Shown piece after piece: positions 321 through 56,200 of a stretch of DNA of 64,000 nt. Each line of letters starts with the position of its first letter. The stretch's first letter is position 1. The notes beneath the pieces were generated by a model. The model saw only the letters and a program-made list of their open reading frames with translations, made no database searches and had not been told where the DNA came from. The DNA is from Alloscardovia macacae (lineage in GTDB: Bacteria; Actinomycetota; Actinomycetes; Actinomycetales; Bifidobacteriaceae). The DNA lies in contig NZ_MWWT01000002.1 in assembly GCF_002259705.1 (NCBI RefSeq), positions 1 through 64,000 of the forward strand, in the 5' to 3' direction. Both the position numbers and the translations under genes were made by a program.

Positions 321-1715
321 ATGACGAAAACGAAATTCGGCATCACTCTGCCACTGACGCTCCTTGCGTACTTCCTCATCCTCATGGATAATTCCATCAT
401 CTTCACGAGCTCCGTGCAGATAGGCGAAAGCCTGAATCTGACAGCATCTGAGCTCGCGTGGATCTCGAACGCCTACACGCTCACTTTCGGCGGATTCCTG
501 CTGCTGAGCGGCCGCCTGTCCGACGCGCTCGGACGCAAGCACATCTTCGAGCTGGGGCTGATCATCTTCGGCCTGAGCTCGCTGATCATAGGCGTGAGCA
601 CGAACGCTGTGGTCATCATCGCCGCGCGTGCTCTGCAAGGCGTGGGAAGCTCCATCATCGCGCCGACCACGCTCGCGCTCATGATGGACGCCTACACCGG
701 GCAGATGCGCACCCGCGCGATTAGCTATTACGGCGCGATGGCCGGCGTGGGCTCGAGTGTGGGGCTGCTGCTCGGCGGCGCGCTGACGAGCTTCTTCTCG
801 TGGCGCGCAGGCTTCCTCATCAACGTCCCGCTCACCATCCTGCTGTTCGCGCTCACCGTGCGGTATGTGCGCGACGGCGCTGCGGACGGCGAGACGTCCG
901 GCTCTCGCGCGAACGGCTCTCGCGCGACCAGCTCTCGCGCGACCGGCGGCATCGACTACGTGGGCAGCGTTCTGCCCGTTCTCGGCTTCGCGAGCCTGCT
1001 CTACGGTCTCGACGGGCAGGTAGCGCGCGGTTTCTTCCTGACCGCCGGCATCGTTCTGCTCATCTGCTTCGCGCTGTACGAGCGGATCGTCTTCGCCCGA
1101 TTCCACGTCGCGCCGGTCATGCCGCTGAGCTTGTTCGCGCATCCAGTCCGCTCGGGCGCCTACGCCGTGCGCGGCCTATTTATGATGGCCATGCTGCCGT
1201 ACTGGTTCCTTCTTCCGCAGGCACTCCAGCGCACGTATGGCTTCGACGCCCTGCAGTCCGGCTTCGCGTTCCTGCCGCTTACCATCATGACGTTCGCTGC
1301 GGCTTTGCTTCTGCCACGTCTCGTGAGTCGCTGGGGCAATTCTTCCGTCCTCGCTGCCGGAGTCCTCTTCTTGCTGGCTGGCCTCCTATGGGCTGCGTTC
1401 TCGTCGCTGGACTCGGGATACGTGCTCGCTGTAGCTCTTCCCATGCTTGTGATCGGCGGAGGACAGGCTCTCATCATGGCGCCGGTCACCTCCGCAGGTA
1501 TCTATAAGGCTCCCGATGAGATAGCTGGCTCGGCCAGCGGCATGACGAATGCTGTCCATCAGCTCGGCGGCCCACTGGGACTGTCCATCATCATGGCTCT
1601 GCCTGGTGGAAGCGTGGACATCGCATCCGCTCTGCACATTATGGCTGTGTTCATAGTCGTGGCACTCGTGGTTACTGTGGCCATCATTATTCCTGGATAT
1701 AGAAAAACTCACTAA
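321..1715 (+). CDS. MFS drug/multidrug exporter, DHA2-like
   Basis: A 464-residue, strongly hydrophobic membrane protein with the major facilitator signature between helices 2 and 3 (GRLSDALGRKHIFELG, about residues 63-78) and a motif C-like stretch near residue 140 (GVGSSVGLLLGG). The N-terminal pattern MDNSIIFTSSVQIGESL is typical of the DHA2 group of proton-coupled drug exporters. A hydrophilic loop around residues 189-211 consists of degenerate SR(A/T) repeats (SGSRANGSRATSSRATGG), which looks like a slippage expansion. The stop codon sits in a 10-bp tandem duplication (about 1704-1725). The next gene starts 31 bp downstream and is probably co-transcribed. The substrate cannot be predicted. 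The start has only a weak purine-rich ribosome site. Confidence 0.8.
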   Translation: MTKTKFGITLPLTLLAYFLILMDNSIIFTSSVQIGESLNLTASELAWISNAYTLTFGGFLLLSGRLSDALGRKHIFELGLIIFGLSSLIIGVSTNAVVIIAARALQGVGSSIIAPTTLALMMDAYTGQMRTRAISYYGAMAGVGSSVGLLLGGALTSFFSWRAGFLINVPLTILLFALTVRYVRDGAADGETSGSRANGSRATSSRATGGIDYVGSVLPVLGFASLLYGLDGQVARGFFLTAGIVLLICFALYERIVFARFHVAPVMPLSLFAHPVRSGAYAVRGLFMMAMLPYWFLLPQALQRTYGFDALQSGFAFLPLTIMTFAAALLLPRLVSRWGNSSVLAAGVLFLLAGLLWAAFSSLDSGYVLAVALPMLVIGGGQALIMAPVTSAGIYKAPDEIAGSASGMTNAVHQLGGPLGLSIIMALPGGSVDIASALHIMAVFIVVALVVTVAIIIPGYRKTH

Positions 1716-1746
1716 AACTCACTAAAAAATTAAGGAGAATATCAGA

Positions 1747-2454
1747 ATGACTAATGTCCTCATCCTGGGCGCTAATGGCCAGATAGCACGCATCGTCGCT
1801 CAGCGTGTCCTCGCAGAACAGCCAGACGTGGCTCTCACCCTCTACCTGCGCTCGGCTGAACGCGTGGCAGATCTCGTCGCTCTCGGCGGTGGCGCTGGCG
1901 ACGCTGTAAGTGCTGGTGCCGGTGCCGGTACTGGTGCTGCGGGGCGCGTGCGCATAGTAGACGGCGACATTCATGACGCAGCTACTCTCGAAGAGGCTAT
2001 GCGCGGACAGGACATCGTCTACATCTCGAATGTGGACCATGATGCGGATAATGCTCTGACTGAACTGGTCATCTCGACGATGAAAAAGACAGGTGTATCG
2101 CGTGTCATCGCGTCGAATGTGCTGGGCATCTATGGCGAAGTGCCAGGCGAATTCGGCCGTTGGAATGAATCCATCATCACTCCTGTGGGCATGACGCGCG
2201 CGCTGCGCTCCGATACCCTCCTCGACGAGTCTGGGCTCGACTACACGACGCTGCGCCTGCCATGGCTGAATGACCGTGATGAGATAGACTACACCATCAC
2301 CCACAAGGGCGAGGACTACGTGGGCGTCTCGGGGTCGCGTCAGTCTATGGCGGATGTGATCGTGAAGATTATAGCCGAGCCGTCCTTCCTGTCGCGCGAA
2401 AGTGTGGGCGTGGCGGCTGCGTACACGCAGGGGTCGGACCGTCCAGTGTACTAG
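1747..2454 (+). CDS. NmrA/SDR-type NAD(P)-binding oxidoreductase
   Basis: A 235-residue protein opening with the Rossmann dinucleotide motif GANGQIARIVAQ (residues 8-19) and with the layout of atypical short-chain dehydrogenases of the NmrA/NAD(P)H-binding type (PF13460-like): a YISNVDHD segment after the third strand, a VSRVIASNVLGIYGE segment, and DYTTLRLPWL near the active-site end. The Tyr-xxx-Lys triad of classical SDRs is not obvious. Residues about 46-66 are an Ala/Gly-rich repeat (AGAGAGTG) that interrupts the fold after strand two. A good ribosome site (TAAGGAG) precedes the ATG. It probably forms an operon with the upstream exporter. Its role, perhaps redox stress or quinone reduction, is inference only. 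Confidence 0.75.
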   Translation: MTNVLILGANGQIARIVAQRVLAEQPDVALTLYLRSAERVADLVALGGGAGDAVSAGAGAGTGAAGRVRIVDGDIHDAATLEEAMRGQDIVYISNVDHDADNALTELVISTMKKTGVSRVIASNVLGIYGEVPGEFGRWNESIITPVGMTRALRSDTLLDESGLDYTTLRLPWLNDRDEIDYTITHKGEDYVGVSGSRQSMADVIVKIIAEPSFLSRESVGVAAAYTQGSDRPVY

Positions 2455-2470
2455 AAAGACTCTCTCAGAT

Positions 2471-2558
2471 AAAAAACGCGACTTTTCTAGACGTCCGTCG
2501 AAAAAATCAAGCCCCCGAGCTTAAAAAATCGACGAACTTCTAGAAAAGTCGCGTTTTT
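2471..2558. repeat. Inverted repeat, family A, between convergent genes
   Basis: The left arm (2471-2500) and right arm (2530-2558) pair over about 29 bp with two mismatches. The arm core ACTTTTCTAGA...CGTCG is shared with elements at 11091-11164 and 39818-39839. A/T runs flank both arms, so it could also end transcription from both sides: the NmrA-like gene stops at 2454 and the opposing ATPase at 2574. Confidence 0.85.
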
Positions 2559-2573
2559 ACATTCTCAGCATCG

Positions 2574-3266
2574 CTACCAGCGCGCTGCGTCGATAAGCTG
2601 AGCAGTGTAGCGGTGCTGTGGATGGGCGAGAACTTCAGCCGTCGCCCCATCCTCGACTACACGCCCTGCCTGCATGACGATAATGCGTTCGGACAGCTGC
2701 TGAGCTACGCCGAGATCATGGAGCACGATGAGCGAGGCAAGGCTCCGCTCGTTCTGTACAGAGCGTAGCGACTCGATAATGTGCTTTTTCCCGAGGACAT
2801 CCACCGCACTCACCGGCTCATCTGCTACCAGAAGTGTCGGATGGGAGACGAGCGCGCGAGCGATAGCCACGCGCTGAGCCTGGCCGCCCGAGATGTCACT
2901 GATATAGCGCTGAGCGAGCTCATCATAGTCGAGGCTGACTGCTTCGAGCGCAGCGCGTACGTCAGCTTCTCCTACTCCAGGTACTCCTTCGCGTACGATG
3001 CGCTCTACTCGCCAGCGTGGGTCGAGCGAGGCGGCAGGATTCTGGAAGACGAGACCCGTCGTAGTCGGTTCTGCCACCTGAACATCTCCCGAGCTCGGCA
3101 CATCAAAACCGAGAGCGATGTTCAGCGACGTGGTCTTTCCCGACCCTGACTCCCCCACGATGGCCACATGCTCACCGTCACCCACGCTGAAGCTGACGTC
3201 ATCGAGGGCAGGCAGGGCAGAGCCCCGATAGCGTTTCGTCACATGGTTCAGACTCAGGATGCTCAT
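2574..3266 (-). CDS. Peptide/nickel-type ABC transporter ATPase (OppF/DppF-like)
   Basis: A 230-residue ATPase with Walker A GESGSGKT (about 37-44), signature [15 protein letters not shown] (about 124-138), Walker B LLVADEPVSAVD (about 145-156) and the switch histidine in VLHDLGVAQQ (about 182). It is the last gene of a five-gene operon running SBP-permease-permease-ATPase-ATPase. Its ATG overlaps the stop of the preceding ATPase by four bases (ATGA), implying translational coupling. It is short for an OppF (usually 300 or more residues) because it lacks the C-terminal oligopeptide/dipeptide extension with the Fe-S cysteines. The importer's cargo (oligopeptide, dipeptide or metal chelate) cannot be fixed from sequence. 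Confidence 0.85.
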   Translation of the reverse strand: MSILSLNHVTKRYRGSALPALDDVSFSVGDGEHVAIVGESGSGKTTSLNIALGFDVPSSGDVQVAEPTTTGLVFQNPAASLDPRWRVERIVREGVPGVGEADVRAALEAVSLDYDELAQRYISDISGGQAQRVAIARALVSHPTLLVADEPVSAVDVLGKKHIIESLRSVQNERSLASLIVLHDLGVAQQLSERIIVMQAGRVVEDGATAEVLAHPQHRYTAQLIDAARW

Positions 3267-4045
3267 GCGTTCTCTCCCTTCACGGCTATCTGATGTGCTG
3301 CGGCGACGAGCTCTTTCGTATAGTCCTCCTGCGGATGCGCGAGAAGCTCACTCGTCACCCCAGACTCCACCACAGAGCCATCATGCAGAACATAGCAGCG
3401 CTGAGTAGCCTTCGAAATGACGGTGAAATCATGACTGACGAGCAGCAGCCCCGCCCCCTGCTCTCCCGTCAGCGACACCAGCAAGTCCATGACGTGCTTC
3501 TGAGCCAGAGCATCCAGAGCTGTCGTCGGCTCATCGGCGAGAAGCAGCTGCGGCGACGAGATGAGTGCTTCCGCTATGGCGACGCGCTGCGCCTGACCTC
3601 CAGACAGCTCCGACGGGTAGCGCGATGCCAGATCCGGTGAAAGCCCCACACGCTCGAGAGCCTGGAGAACACGGTCACGGCGCTGAGCTCGCGTAAGCGC
3701 ATAGTGCAGTTTCAGTGGCAGCGCGACGTTCTGCTTCACTGTGCGCACGGGATTCAGAGCAGCCAGCGGATTCTGGAAGACAGCTGCGAGATACGTTCCC
3801 CGCATAGCTGCACGGTCGAGCTCGCTAAGCTGAAGAATATCCACACCCTCGACGAGGATGCGTCCTTCCGCTCGCATAGTCCGCGGAAGCGTGCCGAGAA
3901 TAGCACGTGTGATGAGAGACTTTCCCGAGCCTGAAGCGCCGATGAGCCCCACACGCTCTCCCGCGTTCACGCGAAGGCTGACGTCCGCGACGCGCGTGCG
4001 TCCATCGTCGAGCGTGATGGACAGATTCTGTATATCGATGCTCAA
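3263..4045 (-). CDS. Peptide/nickel-type ABC transporter ATPase (OppD/DppD-like)
   Basis: I place the start at a TTG codon (4045-4043), preceded by a strong ribosome site GGAGGTGAAGAA and overlapping the stop of the upstream permease (TTGA). This gives 260 residues beginning LSIDIQNLSITL. A longer frame open to 4105 would overlap the permease by 64 bp and adds an unlikely leader. Motifs: Walker A GASGSGKS, signature LSGGQAQRVAIAEAL, Walker B LLLADEPTTALD, H-loop LVSHDF. With the downstream ATPase it would form the heterodimeric motor of a peptide-type importer. Both ATPases lack the extended C-terminus seen in many Opp/Dpp proteins. Confidence 0.85.
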   Translation of the reverse strand: MSIDIQNLSITLDDGRTRVADVSLRVNAGERVGLIGASGSGKSLITRAILGTLPRTMRAEGRILVEGVDILQLSELDRAAMRGTYLAAVFQNPLAALNPVRTVKQNVALPLKLHYALTRAQRRDRVLQALERVGLSPDLASRYPSELSGGQAQRVAIAEALISSPQLLLADEPTTALDALAQKHVMDLLVSLTGEQGAGLLLVSHDFTVISKATQRCYVLHDGSVVESGVTSELLAHPQEDYTKELVAAAHQIAVKGENA

Positions 4046-4902
4046 TTCTTCACCTCCTGCGTTCTGTCTCCTCGAAGGAGAGGATTCGTCAGCGGATCTG
4101 CACACTCACGCACAGCATCTCCGAGGATATTCAGTGCTATCACAGCTACCGTGATGAGAAGACCCGGCCATATAGCTGTGGCTGGATGCAGAGTCACGAA
4201 GCGTGCTGCTGTGGCCAGGGACTGCCCCCACGACGCCACATGCGCTGGCACGCCGATACCGAGATACGTGAGCCCAGACTCAGCGAGAATGGCCGTGGCC
4301 GCACTATGCGAGACCGTGATGATGACTGACGGCATGACCTGCGGCAGGATATGCTGAACAAAGATGCGCCACTCAGACACACCCTTATACCGCGCATAAA
4401 CCACATACTGCGAGCGCGCCGCTGCCGCGGCAGCAGGACGCACCACACGCATGAGATTCAGAGCGTACACTATGGAGCACGCGAGGATTACAGCGAGTAC
4501 ACTCGCTCCAGCTGGAGCAGCGAGAATCAGTGCGATGACCACGGTCGGAATGGAGATGAGCGCATCGATGACGAGTACACTCACTGAACGCACACGCGCC
4601 GAGTGTGCCACGCTCAGCGCCACTCCCCCGACGCCGAGCACGGCAGTAAGAGCGATGACCGCGACCACGATGGCGAACTCTGTGGCAGAGCCAGCCATCA
4701 GCCACGTCGCGATATCTGCTCCCGCACCATCCGTTCCGAGTACATGTGCAGCAGACGGTGCAGCCCAGACACTGTATCCATCTGTATCAGTCAGCGCATA
4801 CGGCGTCCAGAGGAGAGATACAAGCCCCACGAGCGCCCACAGCACCACAAAGATGAGTGGTAGGAGTCCATCCCACCGGCGAATAAGACTGCGTAGTATC
4901 AT
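4042..4902 (-). CDS. ABC transporter permease, OppC/DppC-like
   Basis: A 286-residue permease. The ATG at 4902 overlaps the stop of the upstream permease (ATGA) and follows GGAGG; an upstream ATG at 4953 lacks this and would sit inside the neighbour. There is a first membrane helix (LLPLIFVVLWALVGLVSLL), then the binding-protein-dependent transport domain with five more helices. The EAA-type coupling loop is recognisable as YVVYARYKGVSEWRIFVQHILPQ. The region AAAAARSQY is Ala-rich. It is expected in the cytoplasmic membrane beside the OppB-like subunit. Confidence 0.85.
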   Translation of the reverse strand: MILRSLIRRWDGLLPLIFVVLWALVGLVSLLWTPYALTDTDGYSVWAAPSAAHVLGTDGAGADIATWLMAGSATEFAIVVAVIALTAVLGVGGVALSVAHSARVRSVSVLVIDALISIPTVVIALILAAPAGASVLAVILACSIVYALNLMRVVRPAAAAAARSQYVVYARYKGVSEWRIFVQHILPQVMPSVIITVSHSAATAILAESGLTYLGIGVPAHVASWGQSLATAARFVTLHPATAIWPGLLITVAVIALNILGDAVRECADPLTNPLLRGDRTQEVKN

Positions 4903-52131: not shown

Positions 52132-53571
52132 TTACTTCTCGTCCCCATCCCAGCCCGGGAGAAGCTCTGGAGAGGTAATCTCACGGACATTACTCTTCTC
52201 TTCGTCCTCTATGATCTGTGGAATATCGAATAACGTATTCGCATCCAAAGCCTGGAGTTTACGAGCTGTCGGCACGACAGAGCCCTGTAATGAGCCTACG
52301 AAAGCATTATAATTCTTAATCGTATTTCCCAGTGACTTACCGAGTTTTATCGCGTGACCGCTCATCGTATTCAGACGCTTGAAAAGCTCACGCGATAAGT
52401 CGAAAAGTTCCTTCGCTTCATCACTCAGAGTCTGCTGCTGCCAGGCGAATGCTATGGACTTCAGCACCGACCACAGCGTGACAGGAGACGTGAGCGCCAC
52501 CTGCTGGCTGAATGCGTAATCCACTATGCTAGGGTCTACATCCAGAGCAGCCTGCAGTAGCGAGTCATTCGGTATAAAAGCGATGACGAAGTCTGGTGCC
52601 ACACGCTCTTCTTCCGCTATGGTCCAGTACCTGCGCTTCGCGAGCTCATCGATGTGTCCACGCAGTGCCTTCGCATGAGCCTGCAAGTACTCATCACGAA
52701 TCTTCAGCTCCTGCTCAGAAGCAGAGTCCGGAATCTCGAACGCACGCTGGTAGTCCGAGTATGGCACCTTCGCATCGATAGGAATGAACTTCTCATCTGG
52801 AAGATGCACTATCATGTCTGGGCGCTGCTTCTTCCCATCATCATTCGTGGTGTAGTACTGCGTCTCGAAGTCCACATGTTCACGAAGACCCGCAGACTCC
52901 ACGATGTTCTTCAGCTGTGCTTCACCCCAGAAACCACGCACCTTATTATTCCGCAAGGCCATAGCGAGGCTGGACGTCTCTTTATCCAGCTTCTCCTGTG
53001 CGCGACCAAGTCCGAGGAGCTGCTCGCCGAGCTTCCCCATCTCTGCCTGACGACCTTCTTCTATCTCAGCCACCTTCCGCTGCAAGGCTTCGAGATTCTG
53101 CTGGACAGGGCTAATAGCCTTCAGAACACGAGACTCTTCCTGCGAGGACTGTGCCTGCTGACGACGACGCTCTTCCTCACGCTTCTGCTCCGCCAGGCGT
53201 TCGCGCTGAACGCGCTCTGCTTCTGCTTTCTGAGCCACATCCAGCTGCGCTTCTGCAAACTCGAGCTTTTCCTTCATACCCGAAAGCTGTCCCTCGAGCT
53301 TCGCCGTGGCTTCGCGCTCCGCCGCGAGCGCGGAGCGATTCTCTTCATACTGGTCAGAAAGCTGATCACGCACAGAAGTAACTTCACGCAGCTGCACTTC
53401 GAGCTGCGCGAGCTTCTGCTCCTGCAGAGCCTGCTGCGCTATCTGCTCAGCAGAAATACCAGCCTCTTCAGGCATGGTAGATACAGACTTCTCCTGCACT
53501 TTCGCGACGAAGAATCCGAGTGCACCGCCGAGGGCGATGCCTATGATTAATGTTAGTATTAATTCGAACAT
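52132..53571 (-). CDS. rmuC: DNA recombination protein RmuC
   Basis: I start it at ATG 53571 (MFELILTLIIGIALGGALGFFVA), which makes 479 residues. One N-terminal membrane helix is followed by about 170 residues of coiled coil, then a nuclease-like domain: RGFWGEAQLKNIVESAGLREHVDFETQYYTT and RPDMIVHLPDEKFIPIDAKVPYSDYQRAFE, RmuC hallmarks. RmuC limits inversions and rearrangements; mechanism unclear. A perfect SOS box overlaps the start codon, suggesting LexA control. It diverges from the copper ATPase gene. Confidence 0.9.
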   Translation of the reverse strand: MFELILTLIIGIALGGALGFFVAKVQEKSVSTMPEEAGISAEQIAQQALQEQKLAQLEVQLREVTSVRDQLSDQYEENRSALAAEREATAKLEGQLSGMKEKLEFAEAQLDVAQKAEAERVQRERLAEQKREEERRRQQAQSSQEESRVLKAISPVQQNLEALQRKVAEIEEGRQAEMGKLGEQLLGLGRAQEKLDKETSSLAMALRNNKVRGFWGEAQLKNIVESAGLREHVDFETQYYTTNDDGKKQRPDMIVHLPDEKFIPIDAKVPYSDYQRAFEIPDSASEQELKIRDEYLQAHAKALRGHIDELAKRRYWTIAEEERVAPDFVIAFIPNDSLLQAALDVDPSIVDYAFSQQVALTSPVTLWSVLKSIAFAWQQQTLSDEAKELFDLSRELFKRLNTMSGHAIKLGKSLGNTIKNYNAFVGSLQGSVVPTARKLQALDANTLFDIPQIIEDEEKSNVREITSPELLPGWDGDEK

Positions 53572-53607
53572 ATGTTCGACTATAGCAGGAAGTATCGCTA
53601 TCCGCAA
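53564..53607 (-). promoter_or_regulatory. rmuC promoter with LexA (SOS) box
   Basis: TCGAACATATGTTCGA (53564-53579) is a perfect 16-bp palindrome matching the actinobacterial SOS box. Upstream on the minus strand: -35 TTGCGG (53607-53602), 17-bp spacer, -10 TATAGT (53584-53579), then seven bases to the ATG at 53571. The SOS box spans the start site and start codon, so the mRNA is probably leaderless. Confidence 0.82.
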
Positions 53608-53683
53608 AAACCTCGACACGCGGAATAGTGATGCGGAATCCAGCGTTGAACACTAAGAAGATAGAGAGAGAAAGGTATCACTC

Positions 53684-56200
53684 ATGATGTGGGTATATAT
53701 AGGCATCGCTCTCGTGTTCAGCGCTGCCATTCTCTGGTATTTCTTCTCCCCTCAGAGGGGAGCACATACCAGCGTGTCCGGGAACACACAGAGTATAGAA
53801 GTGGATGTTCACGGAGGATACTCCCCTTCTCTCATCCACGCTCAGGCAGGAACACCTCTCACCATCACATTTGACCGTCAGGAAGCGGGCGAGTGTACGT
53901 CTCATGTCATCTTCGCTGACTTAGGAATTGACGCACATCTTCCTGGACACCGGAAAACGTCCGTGAATCTCCCAGCTCTCCCAGCCGGGGACTATCCGTT
54001 CGCCTGCGGTATGAATATGGTTCACGGCATGCTGCGCGTAACGGGAAGCGCGGACGTCCAGCTGCAGAAAGCAGAGTCGGATGTTCATGTAGCAGACTCC
54101 CAGGAACGCGACGCGGAGATACGCGCACTGAAGAAGAAGTTTATCGTGGGAGCGCTCTTCACTATTCCCGTATCCTTCATAGCTATGTTCGGCATGATAT
54201 GGGGACATTCATGGCCGCAGTGGGTTATGAATCCCTGGCTTCAGGCAGTACTCATTACTCCTGTGATGGCCTACACAGGATGGGATATTCATCGCATAGG
54301 GTGGAATGCTATCCTTCACCGCGCACCCGAGATGAACGCGCTTATTACCGTGGGTACGACAGCAGCGTATCTGTTTAGCGCGCTCGCCACCATAGCACCG
54401 CAGATTCTTCCTGAAGGTTCACGAGACGTGTACTTCGACACGGTAGGCGTCGTGCTCACTCTCGTTATCTTAGGAAGTCTTCTCGAGTCGCGGGCGCGCG
54501 CTGGCACAGGGGACGCCATAGCAGCACTGATGAGGCTGAAGCCAGATACTGCCGTGTCTATCAGCGAGAAAGAACTGCAGGACGGCTCGTGGAAGCTGCC
54601 TACTGCCGGCACACAGATAGCCATGAACGCAGTGCAGTCCGGCACATTACTGAAAGTTCCTGGCGGACACACCGTTCCTACGGATGGGCGCATTCTCCGC
54701 GGATTAGCTCATGTAGATGAGTCCATGATCACAGGTGAATCACGCCCTGTAGAGCGCACAGAGGGGGATCCTCTCACCGGAGGTACACTCGTCCTCGATG
54801 CACCACTAGCCATGGAAGTAACCGCCACCGGTAAAGACACTGTTCTTTCTCAGATCGTACAGCTCGTGTCGAGCGCTCAAGCGAGTAAGGCTCCCGTGCA
54901 GGCGCTCGCGGATAAGGTGGCGCGCATTTTCGTACCCGTCGTCTTCCTCATAGCACTGTGGACCTTTACCGCATGGCTGAGCTTCGGCCCACAGCCACAG
55001 CTCACTTATGCGCTGACCACAGCAGTGACTGTCCTCATCATCGCCTGTCCATGTGCGCTCGGACTGGCCACTCCGCTGTCTGTAACAGCTGGCATAGGAA
55101 TAGGCGCGAAGAATGGCATTCTCGTCGCCTCTGCTGAAGCACTCGAAAGCGCTCGTCACATAGGAACCGTAGTCTTCGATAAGACGGGAACCATCACCGA
55201 AGGTAAGGCCGAAGTACTCAGTGTCAGTGATGGTACAGTGACCTACGCAGACGACCCTATCAAGCCTACATCGCGTGCTGCCATAGCACAGCTAAAGGCA
55301 CTGGGGATTCAGACCATCATGCTTTCCGGAGATAAGGCTGAGACTGCTGCATCCGTAGCGAAAGAAGCTGGCATCGATACAGTCATAGCCGAGGTAAAAC
55401 CGGCTGGGAAGGCATACTGGATATCGCAGATTCAGAAGCAGGTGTCCGAAGAAAGCCACCATACCTCCAGCCGCGAAAACCAGCTCGTAGCCATGGTGGG
55501 TGACGGCATTAATGATGCCCCTGCTCTCGCGCAGGCGGATCTCGGATTCGCCATGGGCACAGGTACAGACATAGCTATGAAGTCAGCCGACGTGACTCTC
55601 ATGACGGGAGACCTCGCCGGAGTAGCGCGCATGATACGCCTCAGCCGCGCCACCATGCGGAATATTCACGAGAATCTCGGGTTTGCTTTCGTCTATAACA
55701 TCGTGGGGCTCGTCGTCGCTACTGGTCTGCTCTATCCACTGACTGGCTGGCTGCTCAGCCCTATGATAGCCGGCGCTGCCATGGCACTGAGCTCCGTCAG
55801 CCTCGTGGTGAATGCGAACCGTCTGCGTTCCGTACGTATAGATTCACGTGTCGATGCCCCGACTACCGCACAGGATCAGCTCATCCCCGAGCATTCCGAA
55901 CCTCGCGTTATCCTCGGTACCGCACAGAATATTCCTGACAACACCCATCTCAGTACTCACGACACTCATCGCAGTACTCACGACCATGAAGGAGAAAATA
56001 TGTTTAACTTCCTGAAGAAAAAGCCAGCCGCCGCAGCCACCTCGAATCCTGCAGCAGAACACGTCCTCACCGACCCCATCTGTGGTATGACCGTGACGAC
56101 GGACGCCAGGTCCTACGAGTATGACGGTAAGATATACCACTTCTGCTCGGACCACTGCCTCGCCACATTTAAGGAGAATCCGAAACAGTACGTAAAGTAA
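53684..56200 (+). CDS. Cupredoxin - P1B copper ATPase - YHS fusion; nucleotide-binding domain missing
   Basis: An 838-residue fusion. Residues 1-25 form a membrane helix; about 30-120 form a cupredoxin-like domain (ECTSHVIF...ALPAGDYPFACGMNMVHGMLRV with Cys, His and Met ligands). About 145-770 is a copper-type P1B ATPase: TGES of the A-domain at 350-353, membrane CPC at 455-457, phosphorylation motif DKTGT at 499-503 and GDGIND at 606-611. Only 24 residues separate D499 from DDPIKPT (523), so the roughly 110-residue N-domain with its HP and GxG motifs is absent. Residues 797-838 are a YHS metal domain, preceded by an internal AAGGAG-ATG (start 56000) that would make a 66-residue YHS protein. 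Ribosome site AAAGG. Confidence 0.85.
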   Translation: MMWVYIGIALVFSAAILWYFFSPQRGAHTSVSGNTQSIEVDVHGGYSPSLIHAQAGTPLTITFDRQEAGECTSHVIFADLGIDAHLPGHRKTSVNLPALPAGDYPFACGMNMVHGMLRVTGSADVQLQKAESDVHVADSQERDAEIRALKKKFIVGALFTIPVSFIAMFGMIWGHSWPQWVMNPWLQAVLITPVMAYTGWDIHRIGWNAILHRAPEMNALITVGTTAAYLFSALATIAPQILPEGSRDVYFDTVGVVLTLVILGSLLESRARAGTGDAIAALMRLKPDTAVSISEKELQDGSWKLPTAGTQIAMNAVQSGTLLKVPGGHTVPTDGRILRGLAHVDESMITGESRPVERTEGDPLTGGTLVLDAPLAMEVTATGKDTVLSQIVQLVSSAQASKAPVQALADKVARIFVPVVFLIALWTFTAWLSFGPQPQLTYALTTAVTVLIIACPCALGLATPLSVTAGIGIGAKNGILVASAEALESARHIGTVVFDKTGTITEGKAEVLSVSDGTVTYADDPIKPTSRAAIAQLKALGIQTIMLSGDKAETAASVAKEAGIDTVIAEVKPAGKAYWISQIQKQVSEESHHTSSRENQLVAMVGDGINDAPALAQADLGFAMGTGTDIAMKSADVTLMTGDLAGVARMIRLSRATMRNIHENLGFAFVYNIVGLVVATGLLYPLTGWLLSPMIAGAAMALSSVSLVVNANRLRSVRIDSRVDAPTTAQDQLIPEHSEPRVILGTAQNIPDNTHLSTHDTHRSTHDHEGENMFNFLKKKPAAAATSNPAAEHVLTDPICGMTVTTDARSYEYDGKIYHFCSDHCLATFKENPKQYVK

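Follow-up and report, generated by a model that had tools for sequence, protein, structure and literature searches.

A clade of copper P-type pumps without the nucleotide-binding domain in Bifidobacteriaceae

The window analysed here is a 64,000-nucleotide stretch of the Alloscardovia macacae contig NZ_MWWT01000002.1 (positions 1 to 64,000), and its forward strand encodes at 53684..56200 a copper P-type pump of 838 amino acids, which translates as a single open frame. The divergent neighbour of this gene (52132..53619, minus strand) belongs to a family conserved at the locus (F1), which we take to be rmuC-like. Pfam matches and the translation give the order of the pump's parts as a cupredoxin domain, a P1B core without the nucleotide-binding (N) domain and a YHS domain; the cupredoxin and YHS domains were absent from a preliminary description of this DNA, as was the occurrence of the same gap in dozens of related genomes. 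Part of an N-terminal anchor helix and the cupredoxin-like domain occupy aa 14-117 (53723..54034; PF13473, E 2.7e-17), the actuator (A) domain and its neighbouring membrane helices aa 288-477 (54545..55114; PF00122, E 1.2e-49), and the C-terminal, metal-binding-like YHS domain aa 796-837 (56069..56194; PF04945, E 2.1e-15), all on the forward strand, as are the features below. TGES can be read in the translation inside the A domain (aa 350-353; 54731-54742), and the metal-binding CPC motif of the membrane domain is C455-P456-C457 in the sixth core helix (55046..55054; invariant in 16 aligned rows).

The phosphorylation (P) domain, aa 477-657 (55112..55654), carries the remaining motifs. The aspartate of the phosphorylation motif DKTGT (55178..55192; invariant in 28 aligned rows) is D499, with its codon at 55178-55180, and translation and alignment place DDPIKPT, the strand that returns into the P domain, at aa 523-529 (55250..55270). 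HAD motif II is SGD at aa 548-550 (55325..55333; Ser in all 57 genomes of the main clade described below), the active-site lysine K576 and a clade-specific tryptophan, W579, share the segment GKAxWI (55409..55420), and GDGIND lies at aa 606-611 (55499..55516; translation, 16-row alignment). Only 24 residues separate DKTGT (D499) from DDPIKPT (residue 523), which leaves no space for an N-domain. The copper P-type ATPase profile TIGR01511 scores the pump at 491 bits against a cut-off of 397, and in a six-frame search of the genome only its positions 2-283 and 363-542 match: the unmatched positions, 284-362, are the place of the N-domain. The preliminary description had read the protein as a copper P1B pump missing exactly its N-domain, with these two motifs 24 residues apart, the other core motifs kept and the frame intact across the join, and this core reading is borne out: TGES, CPC, DKTGT, SGD, K576 and GDGIND are all present in one open frame, and the profile gap agrees with the spacing. 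One published account counts the A, N and P domains as a core common to every P-type ATPase and takes E433-D553 as the N-domain of CopA (PMC11970713). The window protein is a P1B copper pump by descent and by every other core feature tested; lacking the N-domain, it is no canonical P-type ATPase.

The best solved relative by sequence is CopA of Legionella pneumophila (LpCopA; PDB 3rfu, 4bbj), a P1B-1 pump which shares the membrane, A- and P-domain architecture and the TGES, CPC, DKTGT and GDGIND-type motifs. LpCopA has an N-domain and a cytosolic metal-binding domain, whereas the window pump has the cupredoxin and YHS domains instead. A full-length AlphaFold2 model was only moderate (pLDDT 66.5, best structural match LpCopA), and the P domain was therefore predicted alone (aa 477-657, 28 rows; pLDDT 93.3, pTM 0.89). 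The prediction is a complete HAD fold in which a short β-hairpin (aa 510-520, 55211..55243; strands aa 510-513 and 518-520) replaces the cap, at the site where other P-type ATPases have their N-domain inserted; the preliminary description had proposed such a prediction of the join. Against LpCopA (4bbj) the model gives Z 26.3 for 166 residues spread across chain positions 404-674, so that the inserted N-domain of LpCopA is skipped, and among the 50 matches listed P domains of P-type pumps score Z 22-26. The lack of an inserted cap domain is also a feature of capless (C0) HAD phosphatases such as KdsC (4um5, 4um7; Foldseek TM 0.66-0.75), a likeness of form and not of membership: KdsC enzymes are soluble phosphatases, not membrane pumps, and resemble the P domain through the HAD fold only. 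Methanocaldococcus MJ0968, a soluble archaeal P-type-like ATPase without a membrane domain, is a P-domain-like HAD protein that departs from the usual architecture.

A profile of the N-less P domain was run over 189 Bifidobacteriaceae genomes, and 57 of them contain an N-less pump, encoded in each case by a single gene with an uninterrupted frame. Each of 56 genomes has one full-length match (411-510 bits, the next matches reaching at most 282 bits); in the 57th, G091, the match is split in two by a very long linker before GDGIND. The 57 loci measured represent the first 56 genomes (L185 and L072 come from the same one), and G091 was read separately. Homologues come from Alloscardovia criceti, A. 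omnicolens and Scardovia wiggsiae, from Bifidobacterium thermophilum, B. boum, B. apri, B. moraviense and B. goeldii, and from two metagenome-assembled bifidobacteria; in all of the first 11 loci compared (same genus, family, named records) the N-domain is absent and the frame open. DKTGT and SGD are 43-80 residues apart in 57/57 of these main-clade genomes, so the gap is not due to chance, versus 134-194 residues in 27 of 28 conventional pumps. The remaining conventional pump, L027, gave a spacing of 92 through a false regex match and carries SEHP. An HP motif is a feature of the P1B ATPase N-domain in the part of the source cited here (PMC5089723); between DKTGT and SGD no HP-type motif was found in any of the 57 loci (56 genomes) or in G091.

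These comparisons bear on the simplest explanations, that the assembly has a gap or that a recent in-frame deletion has left a dead pump, both of which the preliminary description had considered. The intact frame over a clean join could be taken to speak for a deletion. The orthologue comparison which that description also suggested finds the same gap, with the N-domain absent, in 57 genomes, named Alloscardovia, Scardovia and Bifidobacterium isolates included, which argues against a segment missing from the assembly; the shared gap, the retained catalytic residues and purifying selection argue against a recent, inactivating deletion. We regard the probability of either as negligible, the orthologues having refuted both. 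The N-less pump is under purifying selection: dN/dS (Nei-Gojobori) lies at 0.07-0.22 for eight pairs of N-less genes and at 0.08-0.28 for four pairs with the N-domain, the pair L001/L114 having been left out for saturated dS.

Another 97 of the 189 family genomes carry a different pump matched by the profile (E<=1e-60), and SEHP is present in all 92 of these that were read (the genomes outside this set are G030, G116, G123, G124 and G137). The nearest relatives of the N-less pump are such conventional cupredoxin-type P1B pumps from Bifidobacteriaceae and other Actinomycetota (L100-L109, L019, L079-L082), which have an N-terminal cupredoxin domain in the family members examined and, in L079 and L082, a YHS-like end, but which retain the N-domain with SEHP that the window pump lacks. 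None of the 57 main-clade N-less genomes has a second pump gene at E<=1e-60, where independence would predict an overlap of about 29 genomes (P ~3e-24, kinship ignored). No other protein encoded in the window's genome exceeds the TIGR01511 cut-off, and the three further P-type ATPases there all have N-domains. The N-less pump thus replaces the conventional pump in main-clade genomes.

The surroundings of the gene are also shared: of 13 N-less loci compared, 10 have the rmuC-like gene next to the pump, and a second gene, presumably clpB-like, is near it in 8 of 13, lying beyond reach in the window itself. Among conventional family loci an rmuC-like gene is nearby only in L109 (1/11), in the other orientation. 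Two genomes of a neighbouring genus (G192 and G185) contain degenerate N-less pumps, L084 at 2145-4265 (-) and L085 at 2142-3491 (-), which adjoin rmuC-like and clpB-like genes and whose motifs are destroyed: DKTGT has become DQAVT or DQSAI, TGES has become TGNA or NGQG, and GDGIND has become SDGIEN or SDGFEN. They are either pseudo-pumps or decaying genes. Each of the two genomes also holds a conventional pump with SEHP, which fits a view in which the N-less pump can decay once a conventional pump is present, the functions of the two overlapping. The dN/dS of L084/L085 is 0.19 (dN 0.297 / dS 1.58), a value which by itself does not indicate relaxed selection.

Outside the main clade, minor N-less types occur in three further family genomes. 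Rows for other pump types (L002-L007) and for genomes already represented by L008 and L009 (L037, L038) were left out before loci were counted. Trees were built solely on alignment columns common to N-less and N-bearing pumps. The main N-less clade has 100/100 support in both trees (59 rows, with the degenerate L084 inside, and 42 rows) and is nested within N-domain-bearing actinobacterial pumps. On the best explanation its N-domain was lost a single time, in an ancestor of much of the Bifidobacteriaceae. Two further N-less proteins, L129 and L130, come from two genomes, are 92% identical and group with the N-bearing L131/L132 (100/100), and L133 sits on a long branch near the N-bearing L036 (86/60); all three are from small, fragmented family genomes. 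Mapped on the tree, presence or absence of the N-domain takes three changes to explain, and the branches with good support already require no fewer than that. There were apparently three separate N-domain losses in the family, the placement of L133 being the weakest.

Beyond the family, a sample of 396 genomes of the phylum yielded six genomes with a match at E<=1e-70, one being that of the window and the other five having SEHP-bearing pumps; among the matches listed there was no N-less pump outside Bifidobacteriaceae. With the P-domain profile, 325 of 396 genomes match at E<=1e-36, and all phylum matches listed except the window's start at model position 32 or later, past DKTGT (positions 23-27), as expected where an N-domain splits the match. 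A sample of 396 genomes of the order gave ten matches at E<=1e-48, eight of them unbroken and all from Bifidobacteriaceae, and two partial; the 40 matches listed from a plasmid collection are all in two pieces, spaced as by an N-domain. Few candidates were scored per genome in the phylum and order samples, which makes absence outside the family a sampling result and no proof. Three apparently independent losses in one family, with none seen outside it in these samples, suggest a family-specific cause.

The residues for phosphoryl transfer and dephosphorylation and the CPC copper site are conserved. The HAD-site residues D, K, T, S, D, K, D, N and D are kept in 28/28 rows from all three N-less lineages; DKTGT, SGD, GDGIND and CPC are conserved in 57/57 main-clade genomes, and TGES in each of the 40 main-clade loci long enough to reach it. 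The protein could nonetheless have ceased to be a pump and persist as a copper sensor, carrier or scaffold on the old fold: a protein deprived of its N-domain should be unable to use ATP in the ordinary way, and the degenerate copies in two related genomes, with their dN/dS of 0.19, imply that non-catalytic versions may persist. A sensor would have no need of the conserved catalytic motifs, however, and the N-less pump stands in for the conventional exporter, so we consider this explanation rather improbable.

The main rival to a small phosphodonor, which is discussed below, is that ATP is still used and that the P domain binds it weakly, gripping nothing but its phosphates, for which a low affinity would be enough at millimolar cytosolic ATP; the A domain or new aromatic residues (Y521, W579) perhaps help to bind it. 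All phosphate-contacting residues are kept, and a comparison of 28 main-clade rows shows no variation at the new residues Y521, W579 and W303. W579 itself is found in 57/57 main-clade N-less genomes versus 0/27 N-containing rows (L026 had been removed from the N-containing group in this comparison of 28 with 27 rows). The N-domain with its adenosine contacts, SEHP and glycines, is gone, however, and the two minor N-less lineages are without Y521-like and W579-like residues, so that no shared replacement pocket is seen. We judge continued use of ATP unlikely.

Ser548, a T to S change in motif II, occurs in 28/28 N-less versus 0/27 N-containing rows and in both other N-less lineages; it was dropped as a convergent marker of N-domain loss because four N-containing pumps (L131, L132, L138 and L120) also have SGD.

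The preliminary description had also raised the possibility of a changed mode of operation, for example with the nucleotide supplied in trans. A nucleotide-binding domain provided by another protein seems very improbable to us: a profile search for a stand-alone N-domain in 18 N-less and 3 N-containing genomes found none. In the 18 N-less genomes, matches at E<0.001 occurred only in frames 559-867 aa long, as would be expected of other P-type ATPases, and short-frame matches all had E of at least 0.003. The strongest matches were those in the N-containing control genomes. Next to the pump, the loci compared have no gene of at least 100 aa in common except the rmuC-clpB type neighbours. Nothing was found in favour of such a domain, though a partner that is diverged, smaller or unrelated may exist. 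Altered operation as such is supported; what fits best is that a small phosphodonor takes the part of ATP, a mode not named in that description.

Since the N-less state is conserved in many species, the pump probably runs on another energy-rich phosphate. We rate at about even the chances that it is a working copper exporter whose aspartyl phosphate would be formed with a small phosphodonor, acetyl phosphate being the most probable one. The pump would have derived from a cupredoxin-type P1B Cu(I)-ATPase by loss of the N-domain; D499 would still be phosphorylated and the E1/E2 cycle otherwise conventional; and the phosphoryl group would be supplied by a small donor, for which an adenosine pocket is unnecessary. 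Outside the membrane the cupredoxin domain would receive copper, and inside it the cytosolic YHS domain would bind it. Acetyl phosphate is the likeliest candidate, as the product of phosphoketolase in the bifid shunt, which is central in Bifidobacteriaceae. The part of the literature cited here describes its formation by bifidobacterial phosphoketolase from both F6P and X5P (PMC5315409), and reports that H,K-ATPase can hydrolyse both acetyl phosphate and p-nitrophenyl phosphate even when FITC blocks its nucleotide site (PMC4215238). The more specific proposal, that the protein is no ATPase at all and exports copper by primary-active transport with acetyl phosphate drawn directly from the phosphoketolase pathway, having arisen by up to three losses of the nucleotide domain in the very family best known for acetyl phosphate production in its central metabolism, is tentative, and we would put it at a little under even.

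Phosphoketolase (PF03894) was found in 21/21 N-less genomes tested, which represent all three lineages; in two of them the gene is cut short by a contig end. Of 14 control genomes, 3 have it. It was also found in all eight conventional-pump genomes tested with at least 90% completeness (G003, G005, G013, G015, G019, G028, G029 and G036) and does not separate N-less from conventional genomes inside Bifidobacteriaceae: the metabolism permits, and does not force, loss of the N-domain. Capless HAD enzymes often act on large substrates, and the capless KdsC structures among the Foldseek matches can be counted for a phosphoprotein such as HPr-P, or some other acyl phosphate, as the donor instead of acetyl phosphate. 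The HPr family (PF00381), however, has no match in 8 of the 21 N-less genomes (G000, G001, G002, G004, G034, G006, G033 and G203), a set which comprises the window's genome, three other tested genomes of its genus and both minor lineages, the minor-lineage genomes (G006, G033, G203) being 68-89% complete. HPr-P is therefore unlikely as the general donor, and we consider a phosphoprotein or another acyl phosphate in this role decidedly improbable. The genomes without a match apparently lack this carrier of the sugar phosphotransferase system.

Further points speak against this reading. Coriobacteriales belong to the same phylum as Bifidobacteriaceae. They may also run the bifid shunt, according to the part of the source cited here (PMC5315409), but the matches listed for the phylum sample include no N-less pump other than the window's. 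Another point is mechanical: the N-domain of an ordinary P-type ATPase makes contact with the A domain as well, packing against it, and its role in the cycle has no evident substitute in the N-less pump.

A search of the open-access literature on N-domain loss and on soluble P-type forms listed no N-domain-less pump. A conserved and selected N-less lineage breaks the rule that A, N and P domains are common to P-type ATPases, separates phosphoryl transfer from nucleotide binding in nature and offers a minimal pump in which to study how the aspartyl-phosphate cycle drives transport; it also bears on the copper tolerance of common gut bacteria. If acetyl phosphate is indeed the donor, fermentation would drive primary transport directly, with no ATP in between, and a non-ATP phosphate energy source would be new for the P-type pump class.

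Several smaller observations concern the variable parts of these proteins. W303 (54590-54592 in the window), invariant in 28/28 rows, lies in an A-domain insertion that is absent from the 27 N-containing rows compared. The linker from the GKAxWI helix to GDGIND (55418-55490 in the window, aa 579-602) is very variable in length in the main N-less clade: SGD and GDGIND are 48-122 residues apart, mostly further than in the conventional pumps read, and about 175 apart, with repeated units, in G091 (L198). L087, at 1410-3350 (+), and L130 (genomes G033 and G203) represent the second N-less type, copper-type pumps whose metal-binding domain is cytosolic and HMA-like; their 29 residues from DKTGT to SGD are the shortest join seen, and their nearest relatives, L131 and L132, retain the N-domain. 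In the third N-less pump, L086 at 2203-3810 (+) of G006, a match resembling a metal-binding domain lies in a separate short frame just upstream.
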